NCBI GenBank assembly: GCA_002399505.1
Contig: DHDT01000036.1
Span: forward strand, 31,864 to 37,017
Reading direction: 5' to 3'
Length of the DNA stretch: 5,154 bases
From: Caryophanales bacterium UBA4869
GTDB lineage: Bacteria; Bacillota_I; Bacilli_A; RFN20; CAG-288
Shown here: piece by piece, positions 846 through 5,154 of the stretch
Numbering within the stretch: position 1 is the stretch's first letter
Layout: each line of letters opens with the position of its first letter
Position numbers and translations under genes: made by a program
The notes under the pieces: model-generated
Told to the model about the DNA's origin: nothing
Databases searched by the model: none
What the model saw: only the letters and a program-made list of their open reading frames with translations

Positions 846-2969
846 ATGAAACTGATTATTGTCGAGTCCCCGCACAAGTGCGAGACCATCGGAAAGTTCT
901 TAGGCAAGGATTACAAAGTAATGGCCAGCAAAGGCCATATTCGTGATTTGACTAACCACGGAAAGATGGGTTTAGGTGTTGATATTGAGAATTCATTTAA
1001 GCCTCAGTATGAAGTGTCTCCTGATAAAGCCCCTGTAGTAAAAGAATTACAGAGTGCAGTATCAAAAGCTGATGAAGTGTATCTTGCAACCGACCCTGAC
1101 CGTGAAGGAGAAGCTATCTCCTGGCATCTGGCTCAGGTCTTAAATCTTGACGTCGCCACTACTAAACGTCTGGAGTTTCACGAAATCACTAAGCCGGCTA
1201 TCACTAAGGCTCTTGCTAATCCGCGTATCATCGATATGAATCTGGTGGAATCACAGGAAACCAGAAGAATCATCGATCGTCTGATGGGTTTCCGTCTTTC
1301 TGCCCTGCTTCAAAAGAAGATCAAGTCTAAATCTGCCGGCCGTGTTCAGTCGGTAGTTCTGAAGTTCATCGTCGACCGTGAAAAGGAAATCAAGGAATTC
1401 GTTCCTGAGGAATTCTGGACGATTGACGCTATCTTCAATCAGGATGATAAGTCTGTCAAAGCTGATTTAGCCTCCTATAAGGGCAAGACTGTCAAGATCA
1501 CCAATGGCGATGAAGCGACTAAGATCGTCTCCGAATTACCTGATAAGTTCACAGTCAAGTCACTCAAGAGCGAAATCAGAAAACGTGAAGCCAAGCCTCC
1601 GTTTATTACTTCCACCCTCCAGCAGGAAGCGTTCACTCAGTTCCACTTCTCAACCAAAAAGACCGCTTCTGTTGCTCAGAAGCTCTATGAAGGCGAAGAA
1701 ATCAACGGTTCATCCACTGGTTTGATCACTTACATGAGAACTGATTCCACTCGTCTTTCAGATGAATTCAAGGATGCTGCCAAAGACCATATCATCACCA
1801 CTTACGGCGAAGAATTCTTAGGCACTGTTCATATGCAGAAGAGCAATAAGAATGTTCAGGATGCTCATGAAGCTATCCGTCCTACTGATATCTCATTGAC
1901 TCCGGAAGTCGTCAAGCCTTTCCTGGCTCATGACGAATATCAGCTTTATTCTCTGATCTACGAAAGAGCCTTGGCTTCTTTGATGTCAGCCAGAAAAGAC
2001 AAGGTCACTTCACTGGTCTTAACCGGCAATGAATATGACTTCACCGCTTCTTCAACTTCACCTGTTTTCCCCGGTTACTGCAAAATCTATGGCAAGTACG
2101 AGGAAAAAGAAGATACCAATAATCTTCCTGATGTTCAGGAAGGTCAGGTCATGGATAAAGGCGAAGTCAACAAGACTCAGCACTTCACCAAACCTAAGCC
2201 TCGTTACAATGAAGGCAAAGTCGTTAAGCTCATGCAGGAAAACGGCATCGGCCGTCCTTCCACTTATGCTACGACCATCACTACTTTGTTAGGCCGTGAT
2301 TATGTCGAGAGTCAGAAGGGATCTTTAGTCCCGACTGAACAGGGCATTATGACCTCTGACCGTTTAGAGGAATACTTCCCCAAGTATATGGATGTCAATT
2401 ATACTGCCGGAATGGAAACAGCTTTGGATCAGATTGCCGAAGGCAAGACTGACAAGCTTAAGCTGTTGAATGATTTCTGGGGAGAATTCCAGACCTTCTA
2501 TGCTGATGCCGATAAGAAAATGGAGAAAGTTCAGCCTAAGGAAGTAGGCAGAAACTGCCCTAAATGCGGCTCTCCTTTAGTTATGAGACACGGAAAGTAC
2601 GGAGACTTTGTCGGCTGTTCCAACTATCCTGAATGCAACTACATCGAAAAGAACAAACCCGAAGTCGTCGAAGGACATGTCTGTCCCAAGTGCGGAGCTC
2701 CTCTTGTCAAGAGAGTCGGTAAGAAAGGCGCTTTTGTCGGCTGCTCCAACTATCCTAAGTGCAACTACATGGAATCTCTTGACGGCAAGGAACTGACCAA
2801 TGAGAAGAAACCGGTTGTCATACCTGCTGATGCTCCTCTCTGCCCTTCCTGCCATACCGGACATCTGATTGAGAAGAAGAGCCGCTGGGGCAAAACCTTC
2901 ATCGGCTGTTCCAATTATCCTAAGTGCCATTACATCCAAAAGGACGTCAAAGACAAGAAGGAAGAATAA
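846..2969 (+). CDS. topA: DNA topoisomerase I (type IA), TopA
   Basis: This is a complete 707-residue enzyme, close to the usual Firmicutes length of about 690. Type IA topoisomerases relax negative supercoils in the nucleoid by cutting one strand through a 5'-phosphotyrosine and passing the other. The Toprim domain comes first, with Glu7 in IIVESP and the acidic metal-binding cluster D83-P-D85-R86-E87. The catalytic tyrosine is Tyr296 in ITYMRTDSTR, followed by Arg298. Other family blocks include DAHEAIRPT and GRPSTYATTI. Three C4 zinc ribbons form the C-terminus, beginning at Cys571, Cys613 and Cys666; each pairs CPxC with a later CSNYPxC. The tail is lysine-rich. Arg is encoded mostly by CGT, unlike the AGA-rich downstream gene, which suggests selection for higher expression. 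The gene has its own promoter and is followed after 5 bases by a terminator hairpin, so it is probably transcribed alone, perhaps with some read-through from dprA. No key residue is missing. Confidence 0.98.
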   Translation: MKLIIVESPHKCETIGKFLGKDYKVMASKGHIRDLTNHGKMGLGVDIENSFKPQYEVSPDKAPVVKELQSAVSKADEVYLATDPDREGEAISWHLAQVLNLDVATTKRLEFHEITKPAITKALANPRIIDMNLVESQETRRIIDRLMGFRLSALLQKKIKSKSAGRVQSVVLKFIVDREKEIKEFVPEEFWTIDAIFNQDDKSVKADLASYKGKTVKITNGDEATKIVSELPDKFTVKSLKSEIRKREAKPPFITSTLQQEAFTQFHFSTKKTASVAQKLYEGEEINGSSTGLITYMRTDSTRLSDEFKDAAKDHIITTYGEEFLGTVHMQKSNKNVQDAHEAIRPTDISLTPEVVKPFLAHDEYQLYSLIYERALASLMSARKDKVTSLVLTGNEYDFTASSTSPVFPGYCKIYGKYEEKEDTNNLPDVQEGQVMDKGEVNKTQHFTKPKPRYNEGKVVKLMQENGIGRPSTYATTITTLLGRDYVESQKGSLVPTEQGIMTSDRLEEYFPKYMDVNYTAGMETALDQIAEGKTDKLKLLNDFWGEFQTFYADADKKMEKVQPKEVGRNCPKCGSPLVMRHGKYGDFVGCSNYPECNYIEKNKPEVVEGHVCPKCGAPLVKRVGKKGAFVGCSNYPKCNYMESLDGKELTNEKKPVVIPADAPLCPSCHTGHLIEKKSRWGKTFIGCSNYPKCHYIQKDVKDKKEE
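2607..2935 (+). repeat. Three-copy 38-bp motif encoding the zinc-ribbon ends of TopA
   Basis: The second half of each zinc ribbon (F-V/I-GCSNYPxCxYxx) is encoded by a similar 38-base segment at 2607–2644, 2733–2770 and 2898–2935. Copies 1 and 2 differ at 3 positions, copies 2 and 3 at 6, and copies 1 and 3 at 7. The spacing is irregular (126 and 165 bases). This reflects internal domain duplication in TopA and is not a mobile repeat. Confidence 0.75.
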
Positions 2970-2974
2970 ACTAC

Positions 2975-3006
2975 ATCCCGCAGCAAACCTGCGGGATTTT
3001 TCTTTT
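2975..3006 (+). terminator. Intrinsic terminator of topA
   Basis: ATCCCGCAG (2975–2983) pairs perfectly with CTGCGGGAT (2989–2997) around a 5-base CAAAC loop. It is followed by a T-rich tract, five T, C, then four T (2997–3006). The 9-bp GC-rich stem plus U-tract starts 5 bases after the topA stop and is a textbook Rho-independent terminator. Confidence 0.95.
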
Positions 3007-3012
3007 ATAGGT

Positions 3013-3018
3013 TATAAT
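3013..3018 (+). promoter_or_regulatory. Perfect -10 box (TATAAT) for the Xer–HAD gene
   Basis: TATAAT at 3013–3018 places the expected transcription start at about 3025–3026, essentially on the GTG start codon at 3026. No convincing -35 is visible: the 17-base-spaced position (2990–2995, TGCGGG) lies within the topA terminator stem. There is also no TGn extension. The match may be an activator-dependent or weak promoter, or chance in A/T-rich sequence. Confidence 0.5.
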
Positions 3019-3025
3019 AGTTTTT

Positions 3026-4678
3026 GTGGAAAACGAAAACGAAAAGAATAACCGAATCGCCCTGGCCCTTGATCAGGATCTCAATGATTTCATGGTCTAT
3101 CTGACTGGTGTTTTAAACTACTCTTATAAGACCAGAATCAGTTATGGCGAAGACGTGGCCTGTTTTATTCTTTTCCTTCAGGGACGTCATATCGAAAAGA
3201 AAGATGTCGACAGGGAGACAATCCGCTCTTTTCTTTTGACTCTCAATAAAACCGGACTTGAGAAAAGCTCTGTCAAAAGAGCTCTGTCTGCTCTTAGGCA
3301 TTTCTATCGGTATCTATATCGATACAAAGGATACCTGTCTAATCCCTTTGACTCAGTCCATAGTCCCAAAACTCCTAAAAAGCTTCCTGAATTCCTCACG
3401 ATGGATGAAGTCAATGATTTCCTCGACTCCAATAAGAAGAGGGATGATCCTCTTTCAAAAAGAGATCAGGCAATCTTAGAACTGATGTTTGCTTCCGGAC
3501 TCAGAGCTTCTGAGACTATCGGACTGCAGATAAGAGACGTTGACTTTTCCTCCCGTCTTTTGAAGATCCACGGAAAAGGCAGAAAGGACCGCTTGGTTCC
3601 TTTCAATAAGGCTTCTAAAGAGGCCCTTCTTCTCTATCTGGAACAGATCCGTCCCTCTTTGATAAAAGGAGAAGACGAAAGCGAAGATCTGGTCTTTCTT
3701 AACGGAAGAGGAAAACCTCTGACAGAAAGAGGACTGGAGTATCTTATCTCTGAGGCTGCCTTAAAAGCCGGATTCACATTGAAGGTTCACCCCCATATGC
3801 TCCGCCATTCATTTGCTACCGAATTGCTCAACAGCGGAACTGACTTACGAATCATTCAGGATCTACTTGGGCATTCATCCATCAGGACCACGTCCATCTA
3901 TACCCATGTCACTTATGAAGACTTGAAGAAAACCTATGAGGAGTGCTTTCCAAAAGCACATATAACAAACAACATGAAAGAAAAAAGAGCTGTTATCTTC
4001 GACTTTAACGGGACGATGTTCTTCGATGAGGAAAAACATATTGAAAGCTGGAAAGATTTTTCTCTGCAGGAATTCAATCGAGAGATAAAAGACGAGGAAT
4101 TTCCTCTTCGTATCCATGGACACAACAATGAAGATATTCTTTCTTTTCTTTCCGGAAGAAAGTTCTCAATTGAGGAGACAGCGGTCTATGCCGAAAGAAA
4201 AGAAAGACTTTATCAGTCTCTGTGTGAGAAAGATACAGCTAACCTTCATCTGGTAAAAGGACTGACTCAATTTCTCGATATTCTCAAAGAAAACAACATT
4301 CCTTTTGCGATTGCCACTGCCAGTATGAAACCTAATGTCGACTGGTATATCAAGACTTTCGGACTTGACAGGTGGTTTACCGCTAAGACCATTATCTATG
4401 ATGACGGAACACTCACTGAAGGAAAGCCGGCTCCGATGATATATCAGAGAGCTATGAAGGCTCTCGATATCAAACCGGAAGAGACGGTGATATTCGAAGA
4501 TGCCATCTCCGGAGTCAAGAGCGCCTATGCTGCTAAGGCCAAATATGTCATCGCCGTTGAGAAGGAAGAAAGAAGAGAGCAGTTTATGAAGATGAAGGAA
4601 GTCGATGATGTCATTCTGGACTTCACTTCTCTTCCTCAGATTGTCTGGGAATTTTTAGGACTTCTCAATCAAAATTAA
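3026..4678 (+). CDS. Xer-type tyrosine recombinase fused to a HAD-superfamily hydrolase
   Basis: One 550-residue frame holds two complete domains. Residues 1–311 are a XerC/XerD-like recombinase, which resolves chromosome dimers at dif. It has an N-terminal SAM-like DNA-binding domain (about 14–105), then the catalytic set Arg160 (SGLRASE), Lys184 (HGKGRK), His257 and Arg260 (HxLRH), His283 (LLGH) and nucleophile Tyr292 (IYTHVT). The Xer part ends with FPKA, like the usual H-P-R-A ending. Five residues later, from Met317, a HAD hydrolase of the beta-phosphoglucomutase-like type begins, with a helical cap. Its motif I is D326-F-N328-G-T, motif II Thr431 in IATAS, motif III Lys467 (GKPAP) and motif IV Glu491-Asp492. 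Asn328 replaces the usual second Asp. The GTG start is the only start that keeps the first recombinase helix; it has no Shine-Dalgarno site. The next in-frame ATG (3092) would cut that helix. Position after topA favours XerC over XerD, but sequence alone does not decide. The HAD substrate is unknown, and the fusion could also reflect a lost stop or a sequencing error. Confidence 0.88.
   Translation: MENENEKNNRIALALDQDLNDFMVYLTGVLNYSYKTRISYGEDVACFILFLQGRHIEKKDVDRETIRSFLLTLNKTGLEKSSVKRALSALRHFYRYLYRYKGYLSNPFDSVHSPKTPKKLPEFLTMDEVNDFLDSNKKRDDPLSKRDQAILELMFASGLRASETIGLQIRDVDFSSRLLKIHGKGRKDRLVPFNKASKEALLLYLEQIRPSLIKGEDESEDLVFLNGRGKPLTERGLEYLISEAALKAGFTLKVHPHMLRHSFATELLNSGTDLRIIQDLLGHSSIRTTSIYTHVTYEDLKKTYEECFPKAHITNNMKEKRAVIFDFNGTMFFDEEKHIESWKDFSLQEFNREIKDEEFPLRIHGHNNEDILSFLSGRKFSIEETAVYAERKERLYQSLCEKDTANLHLVKGLTQFLDILKENNIPFAIATASMKPNVDWYIKTFGLDRWFTAKTIIYDDGTLTEGKPAPMIYQRAMKALDIKPEETVIFEDAISGVKSAYAAKAKYVIAVEKEERREQFMKMKEVDDVILDFTSLPQIVWEFLGLLNQN
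3974..4678 (+). other. HAD-hydrolase half of the fusion; possible independent start at ATG 3974
   Basis: This part encodes residues 317–550 (234 aa), the normal size of a stand-alone C1-capped HAD phosphatase. The MKEK beginning at ATG 3974, just before the first beta strand (AVIFDFNGT), looks like an ordinary HAD N-terminus. However, the 20 bases upstream contain no Shine-Dalgarno sequence; the nearest, GAGGAG at 3938–3943, is 30 bases before the ATG and too far to be effective. Independent initiation is therefore unsupported but not excluded. HAD enzymes of this type usually act on small phosphorylated metabolites through an aspartyl-phosphate intermediate. Confidence 0.7.
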
Positions 4679-4705: not shown

Positions 4706-4716
4706 TAATAAACAGT

Positions 4717-4723
4717 GGAGGAG
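4717..4723 (+). promoter_or_regulatory. Strong Shine-Dalgarno site of the flavodiiron gene
   Basis: GGAGGAG at 4717–4723 lies 6 bases before the ATG at 4730, fixing the start. It contrasts sharply with the Xer–HAD gene, which has no such site. Confidence 0.9.
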
Positions 4724-4729
4724 AATACC

Positions 4730-5154
4730 ATGCACAACGAAAGAAAACTGATTGACGGACTCTATTATGTCGGAGCCAGTGATAGAAGGCTGACCAAGTT
4801 TGAGAATCTCTTGCCTTTGGAAAGAGGAGTCTCTTATAATTCCTATCTCTTCATCGAAGAAAAAACCTGTTTGTTTGATACTGTCGATATCTCGGTGACT
4901 CGTCAGTTTCTCGATAACATCGATTTTCTTCTCAAAGACCGAAAACTTGATTATCTGGTCATTTCCCATATGGAACCTGATCATTGCTACAACATCAGGG
5001 AAGTCTTGCTCAGACATCCTGAGACTGTCGTCGTTGGCAATGCCAAGACTTTTTCTTTCCTGAAACAGTTCTTCCCTGATCTCGACTTAGAAGGACATAC
5101 CTTAGTAGTCAAAGAAGGGGATACTCTGGCCTTTGGAAAGAGAGTATTTCATTT
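4730..5154 (+). CDS. Flavodiiron protein (FprA / A-type flavoprotein family), N-terminal part, 3' end outside the window
   Basis: The frame runs from ATG 4730 to the right edge (141 full codons). The visible part is the N-terminus of the metallo-beta-lactamase-like domain of a flavodiiron protein. In full form these soluble enzymes carry a C-terminal flavodoxin domain with FMN and reduce O2 to water and/or NO to N2O, protecting anaerobes. Evidence: the opening IDGLYYVGASD, the NSYLFIEEKTCLFDTVD strand pair, and the diiron-ligand motif H80-M-E82-P-D84-H85 in VISHMEPDHC, which is typical of the family and differs from the HxHxDH of ordinary beta-lactamase-fold hydrolases. The remaining iron ligands and the flavodoxin domain lie outside the window, so oxygen versus nitric oxide preference and any extra redox domains cannot be judged. 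The gene has its own Shine-Dalgarno site and probable promoter. Other HxExDH lactamase-fold proteins are possible but less likely. Confidence 0.88.
   Translation, partial: MHNERKLIDGLYYVGASDRRLTKFENLLPLERGVSYNSYLFIEEKTCLFDTVDISVTRQFLDNIDFLLKDRKLDYLVISHMEPDHCYNIREVLLRHPETVVVGNAKTFSFLKQFFPDLDLEGHTLVVKEGDTLAFGKRVFH

Follow-up and report, generated by a model that had tools for sequence, protein, structure and literature searches.

Xer recombinases are, to our knowledge, widely conserved chromosome-maintenance enzymes that normally stand alone. A 5,154-nucleotide stretch of DNA from Caryophanales bacterium UBA4869, here called the window, contains a gene in which such a recombinase runs without interruption into a HAD hydrolase. 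This raises the question of whether the fusion is genuine, and whether its two halves work side by side or control one another.

Domain architecture of the fused gene

The gene consists of a single frame of 550 codons without an internal stop (Table 1). The first-pass annotation had read it as an in-frame fusion of a Xer recombinase and a HAD hydrolase. This reading holds, as Pfam finds both domains and the arrangement is conserved among homologues, described below. The recombinase residues that had been listed (R160, K184, H257, R260, H283 and Y292) are all present, and this R-K-H-R-H-Y set in an integrase fold identifies a tyrosine recombinase (PF00589). R160, K184, R260, H283 and Y292 are identical in 70/70 fused homologues and H257 in 69/70. 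Of the four motif regions claimed for the HAD half, motif I needs revision, being D-x-N and not D-x-D. D326, K467, E491 and D492 are kept in all 70 fused homologues and T431 in 69, with one serine. The match to the NCBIfam XerC model stops at residue 311 and the HAD domain begins at about residue 320, leaving a joint of about 8 residues. The HITNN peptide previously taken as a joint of about five residues lies within it. In the predicted structure both domains are mostly confident, pLDDT falls below 50 across residues 306–317, and the orientation of the domains is undefined (pTM 0.46).

Table 1 Features of the fused gene and its upstream region, in window coordinates.
Feature	Position	Strand	Details
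Terminator-like hairpin with T-run after topA	2975–3006	+	9 pairs; 2 terminator-like matches are the two strands of one hairpin; shuffle mean 0.4
TATAAT, candidate -10 element for a leaderless xerC-HAD transcript	3013–3018	+	7 nt 5' of GTG; putative
Fused XerC-type recombinase / HAD-IA gene	3026–4678	+	550 aa; GTG start; stop 4676–4678
N-terminal SAM-like (DNA-binding arm) domain	3083–3322	+	PF02899; aa 20–99
Tyrosine recombinase catalytic domain	3392–3919	+	PF00589; aa 123–298; E 3.9e-47 (Pfam)
Catalytic Tyr codon (Y292)	3899–3901	+	In PF00589 domain
Linker HITNNMKE	3959–3982	+	aa 312–319
In-frame ATG at joint	3974–3976	+	Shine-Dalgarno pairing not found, +0.8 kcal/mol
HAD-IA domain	3992–4549	+	PF13419 (HAD_2); aa 323–508; E 2.4e-22; structure match spans aa 320–546
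HAD motif I, D-F-N-G-T	4001–4015	+	Nucleophile D326; Asn at 328 where Asp is usual
HAD motif III lysine K467	4424–4426	+	Conserved residue
HAD motif IV E491-D492	4496–4501	+	Conserved residues

The fusion recurs in relatives

A search for the two-domain architecture and a comparison of junctions in relatives, as had been proposed, returned many fusions with comparable joints. Among the best 120 of 7621 matches in 5.8 billion clustered proteins, 70 (P0001–P0070, 45–100% identity) carry both Pfam domains, 49 are Xer proteins alone and one, P0080, has the length of a fusion without a recognised HAD domain. The 70 include four near copies, P0001–P0004, which are protein clusters of 99–100% identity from ncbi, ena and jgi with a joint identical to that of the window. 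In two of these the longest contig has the same length (18540), and the four may therefore stem from fewer than four independent assemblies. A scan of GTDB-based genome contigs gave nine loci, in uncultured Bacilli, Bacillales, Firmicutes or Clostridiales, seven of them fused and two with neighbouring, separate genes.

In the 23-genome family of the relative G002, 11 genomes have the fused gene (G001–G007, G013, G015, G016 and G017) and four have adjacent, separate xerC and HAD genes (G008, G009, G014 and G018). Five others (G010 and G020–G023) possess xerC, and the 9–18 kb read around it gave no HAD match, an absence that is weak for G022 because its contig ends just after xerC. For G011, G012 and G019 no clear xerC, or only fragments, could be found. 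Beyond the fused genomes, none of 279 genomes in the order reaches fused scores (best E-value per genome), a comparison that leaves room for adjacent HAD genes elsewhere. The earlier concern that this genome might be a lone exception among close relatives with separate genes is thus rejected by 7 of 9 scanned genomes and 11 of 23 family genomes. The Xer-HAD fusion is real, conserved and recurrent in many relatives. We found no published description of one in open-licence PMC text, judged by titles and abstract openings.

It is hardly credible that the fusion is an artefact of assembly or gene calling in which a stop or frameshift was lost at the joint. Two rows that carry an unfused or free label are near-duplicates of fused ones (P0091 of P0067, and P0124 of P0010), and the frame is broken inside the Xer part of G015, so the data set may contain errors of this type. 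Against this, the joint is identical in the four clusters of the window's species, is comparable in divergent relatives from several sources, and is in frame in 11 family genomes. The break in G015 (L043/L056) is a frame change at about residue 177, either an assembly error or decay, and leaves the Xer-HAD joint in frame.

The joint between the two halves

The linker has a mean pairwise identity of 0.14, versus 0.50–0.59 for the Xer parts and 0.52 for the HAD part, and by our measure its length ranges from 5 to 15 residues. Inspection of junctions at the DNA level revealed several forms. The xerC and HAD genes are separated by 73–77 nt in G008 and G009. They overlap by 8 nt in G014, with AGGAGG, and through ATGA in G018, with a Shine-Dalgarno site; overlapping genes with such sites are a usual sign of translational coupling. 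The fused frame retains AAGGAGG and ATG in G004–G006, AAGGAG and ATG in G007, and a joint ATG with weaker pairing in G001. Fused G002, G003, G013, G015, G016 and G017 have no ATG within 10 codons before DFNGT, and G002 has an unpaired GTG. The series from gap to overlap, to fusion with a Shine-Dalgarno site, to fusion without an ATG is our own ordering and not a demonstrated path.

These junctions bear on whether one frame could yield two products, the full-length fusion and a free HAD protein from an internal start. Pairing energies were calculated against the anti-Shine-Dalgarno tail. In four of the 12 fused loci read as DNA (L013–L016) an in-frame ATG is preceded by a strongly pairing site (-8.3 to -11.9 kcal/mol), L010 has weaker pairing (-5.6 kcal/mol), and 19/70 fused proteins fit a loose K/E-then-Met pattern at the joint, of the sort that AAGGAGG followed by a start would encode. 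On the other side, the ATG in the window is unpaired and 34/70 fused proteins lack a Met in the 10 residues preceding FDFNGT, and we therefore regard a single fused product as likely for the window. Two products may be made in some relatives but hardly from the window's own gene, and we give this reading a low probability.

History of the fusion

We calculated a tree from TopA and XerC with 20 rows, TopA being present in 18; G013 and G017 were under half filled and G015 was omitted. All HAD-bearing rows fall on one side of a branch with support of 100/100. A single clade of the 11 fused rows was rejected (AU p = 0.0021), and the fused rows came together as one group in 0/200 bootstrap trees. 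Parsimony on this tree gives three changes between fused and adjacent on top of the change in HAD presence. The backbone is poorly resolved, with 8/17 inner branches starred, and when the starred branches are counted by themselves no more than 1 change of the fused label is required. A Xer tree of 100 of the 120 listed proteins, in which P0080 was labelled fused and the outgroup rows unfused, requires at least 8 label changes on its starred branches. In a tree of 105 HAD domains, 67 fused and 21 free domains cluster together, separate from 17 free domains at greater distance (SH-aLRT 99). A single fused clade is also rejected here, on a quick tree in which long branches meet. A few free or unfused rows differ very little from fused ones; these may stem from breaks in gene calling and inflate the counts. 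Since the trees reject a single fused clade, joining or splitting was probably repeated. The simplest account would be one recruitment of the HAD gene behind xerC followed by repeated joining or splitting.

Genomic surroundings

In the window, topA directly precedes the fused gene. The terminator-like hairpin after topA suggests that the fused gene may have its own promoter. A promoter in full form was rejected, as positions 2850–3150 contain no complete sigma-70-type site; TATAAT is present alone, with no matching -35 hexamer found. A TANAAT box occurs 6–7 nt 5' of the probable xerC start codon in the window and also in L001, L005, L006, L083, L087 and L091, making 7/19 loci as judged by eye. 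Its position may fit a leaderless mRNA.

The interval between topA and xerC varies among relatives. L082, L088, L089 and L091, from four genomes without the HAD gene, have a gene there resembling FAD proteins, which we take to be TrmFO; it is absent from this interval in the window and in the HAD-bearing L001, L004, L008 and L009. In G002 (L002), about 4 kb with other genes separates topA from the fused gene. Downstream in the window, the gene at 4715–5152 resembles the ODP / metallo-beta-lactamase group and is presumably of the flavodiiron type; Pfam scores for the piece within the window are below cut-off. A link to defence systems was rejected, with no PADLOC match found at E ≤ 0.001.

The recombinase half and the XerCD-dif system

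The Xer half scores 319.6 bits (317.3 for the whole protein) against the NCBIfam XerC equivalog TIGR02224, whose cut-off is 335.15, and 293.1 bits against the XerD model. XerC is ahead of XerD yet remains under the curated cut-off, and we therefore call the protein XerC-type and do not file it as an equivalog. A second Xer gene is common in relatives. The copies in G001 and G002 score best as XerD (311.4 and 296.6 bits, below the cut-off of 329.6), and in both of these genomes, the two examined, the gene adjoins what we take to be a phosphopentomutase gene. The FtsK gamma domain was detected in 19/23 family genomes at E ≤ 0.001, in 13/23 above the Pfam cut-off, and was absent at that threshold from 4/23.

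Relatives were also scanned for dif, a two-armed site of 28 bp, using the Firmicutes consensus as the pattern and allowing up to 3 mismatches. Of the 13 genomes scanned, 12 have a dif-like site, predicted from sequence, at 1.5–12 kb from their second Xer gene (L069–L071, L073, L074, L076–L081 and L093, from G001–G009, G013, G014 and G018). In the thirteenth, the fused G016, a second Xer gene was not found and a convincing dif was likewise missing. The match count by itself proves nothing, since control matches are about as many in these genomes. The argument for dif is drawn from location next to the second Xer gene and from a T-x-C-G just left of the searched pattern, which is invariant in the 12 aligned sites and absent from L072 and L075, the other two sites read. 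In 11 genomes the top match, or the sole one, is that near xerD; that of G014 has 3 mismatches, with the better-scoring L072 elsewhere. The consensus of the 12 sites, CTTCGTATAATGTTTATTATGTTAA, has an arm-centre-arm layout as in dif. The close linkage of a dif-like site and a recombinase gene in 12 genomes is notable in itself.

Taken together, the second Xer gene, FtsK gamma and the dif-like site in most relatives tested make ordinary XerCD-dif dimer resolution the likely job of the recombinase half. It would likely act together with XerD to resolve chromosome dimers at dif, binding the left arm and exchanging strands with XerD under FtsK control. CodV, the XerC of Bacillus subtilis, favours the left half-site (PMC5357621).

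The HAD half

The HAD half scores 51.5 bits against TIGR01509 (HAD-IA hydrolase, variant 3), above the curated cut-off of 29.4, and 86.9 bits against TIGR01990 (beta-phosphoglucomutase), below that of 189.4. We know of no substrate for this HAD subfamily. Its activity is predicted to be phosphatase-like. At the position two after the nucleophile, all 70 fused homologues have an asparagine (N328) instead of aspartate, and the general acid-base aspartate of beta-phosphoglucomutase is thereby missing. D-x-N also occurs in shorter homologues of the HAD half (112/120 by pattern). The motif resembles laboratory Asp-to-Asn variants of related enzymes that were solved with bound ligands, D10N of beta-phosphoglucomutase and CbbY and Asp13Asn of a pyrophosphatase (entry titles; PMC11283535). 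This HAD subfamily thus carries naturally an active-site substitution that has been made in the laboratory in its relatives.

The catalytic residues of HAD are no longer present in P0080 (512 aa, 10 member sequences), whose frame nevertheless remains open. Its residues 312–512 form an open C-terminal region of about 200 residues on a XerC-type protein, for which neither a HAD family in Pfam at E ≤ 1 nor another homologue was found. Profile comparison gave a weak resemblance to the HAD cap (E 0.0018, probability only 15%), which scores 27.8, versus 18.7 for the best of 20 shuffles. The model of the region has a mean pLDDT of 79 and is biased, since the alignment behind it is made of HAD fusions; the best 50 Foldseek matches listed for it are all recombinases. 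The attached region is a probable decayed HAD domain. Purely catalytic selection fails to explain a frame that remains open after the loss of the catalytic residues.

Independent enzymes or regulatory coupling

The gene encodes a XerC-type recombinase and a HAD-IA domain on a short, probably flexible linker. On balance, we think that the two are probably largely independent of one another and kept together for co-expression. The variable linker and the undefined domain orientation favour two tethered enzymes of this kind. The HAD half would be a phosphoryl-transfer enzyme for a small phosphorylated metabolite, its chemistry slowed or altered by the asparagine in place of the general acid-base aspartate. 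The fusion, or the overlapping gene pair in some sister genomes, would fix co-expression of the two activities. Recurrent fusion counts against mere co-expression, as it could reflect a physical need. Recurrence, attachment at the partner-contact end and the open frame of P0080 count against independence.

A rival reading, along the lines of the effect on dimer resolution or tie to a metabolite suggested by the first-pass annotation, is regulatory coupling, in which the HAD half would sense a phosphorylated metabolite and, through the C-terminal tether, alter partner contacts and dimer resolution. The HAD domain sits on the recombinase C-terminus, where the final helix has been proposed to touch the partner, and XerD is within reach of a domain tethered at this site (PMC5052618). 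The likeness of D-x-N to the ligand-bound laboratory variants (PMC11283535), the recurrent joining or splitting of xerC and HAD, and the retention in P0080 of an attached remnant without catalytic residues point the same way. We nevertheless consider coupling unlikely, given that D-x-N, being present in the shorter HAD homologues too, did not arise for that role, that the linker is poorly conserved and that sister genomes are served by separate genes. A narrower version, to which we assign a distinctly smaller chance, is that the HAD domain is a natural substrate-trapping receptor, whose D-x-N would hold a phosphorylated sugar without fast turnover and whose tether would gate dimer resolution. 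If so, the XerC-XerD synapse would be told the metabolic state of the cell and chromosome dimer resolution would be gated by a metabolite.

In this lineage XerC and one metabolic-type enzyme probably became fused on more than one occasion, a natural gene-fusion clue that the functions belong together. Whether phosphorylated metabolites are tied to the resolution of chromosome dimers can thereby be tested directly.

Comparison with known systems

Another natural Xer fusion is hinted at by PDB chain 9i5v_14, named RaiA by its depositors, in which residues 8–296 of 401 match Xer, unless this is a naming slip. The likeness is a sequence match alone and, if the chain is a fusion at all, its attached domain is other than HAD. 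A literature search found no paper on this chain or on a precedent linking Xer to ribosome hibernation.

For the HAD half, the nearest known proteins are HAD-IA hydrolases of the beta-phosphoglucomutase-like fold, the closest solved structure being 6w04 from Entamoeba histolytica. Unlike beta-phosphoglucomutase, the HAD half is fused to a recombinase, has asparagine in place of the general acid-base aspartate and does not reach the beta-phosphoglucomutase cut-offs.

The recombinase half resembles XerC/CodV of the XerCD-dif-FtsK system in its best match to TIGR02224, its conserved catalytic residues and its location after topA, and in the dif-like site, second Xer gene and FtsK gamma domain of most relatives tested. 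It differs in bearing a C-terminal HAD domain and in scoring under the curated XerC cut-off. An engineered Escherichia coli XerC-FtsK gamma fusion recombines dif, which indicates that C-terminal additions to XerC are tolerated (PMC5052618). In that recombination-competent construct, as in the window protein, XerC bears an additional C-terminal domain joined through a flexible linker; it differs in being man-made and in that its attached domain is a known activator (PMC5052618).
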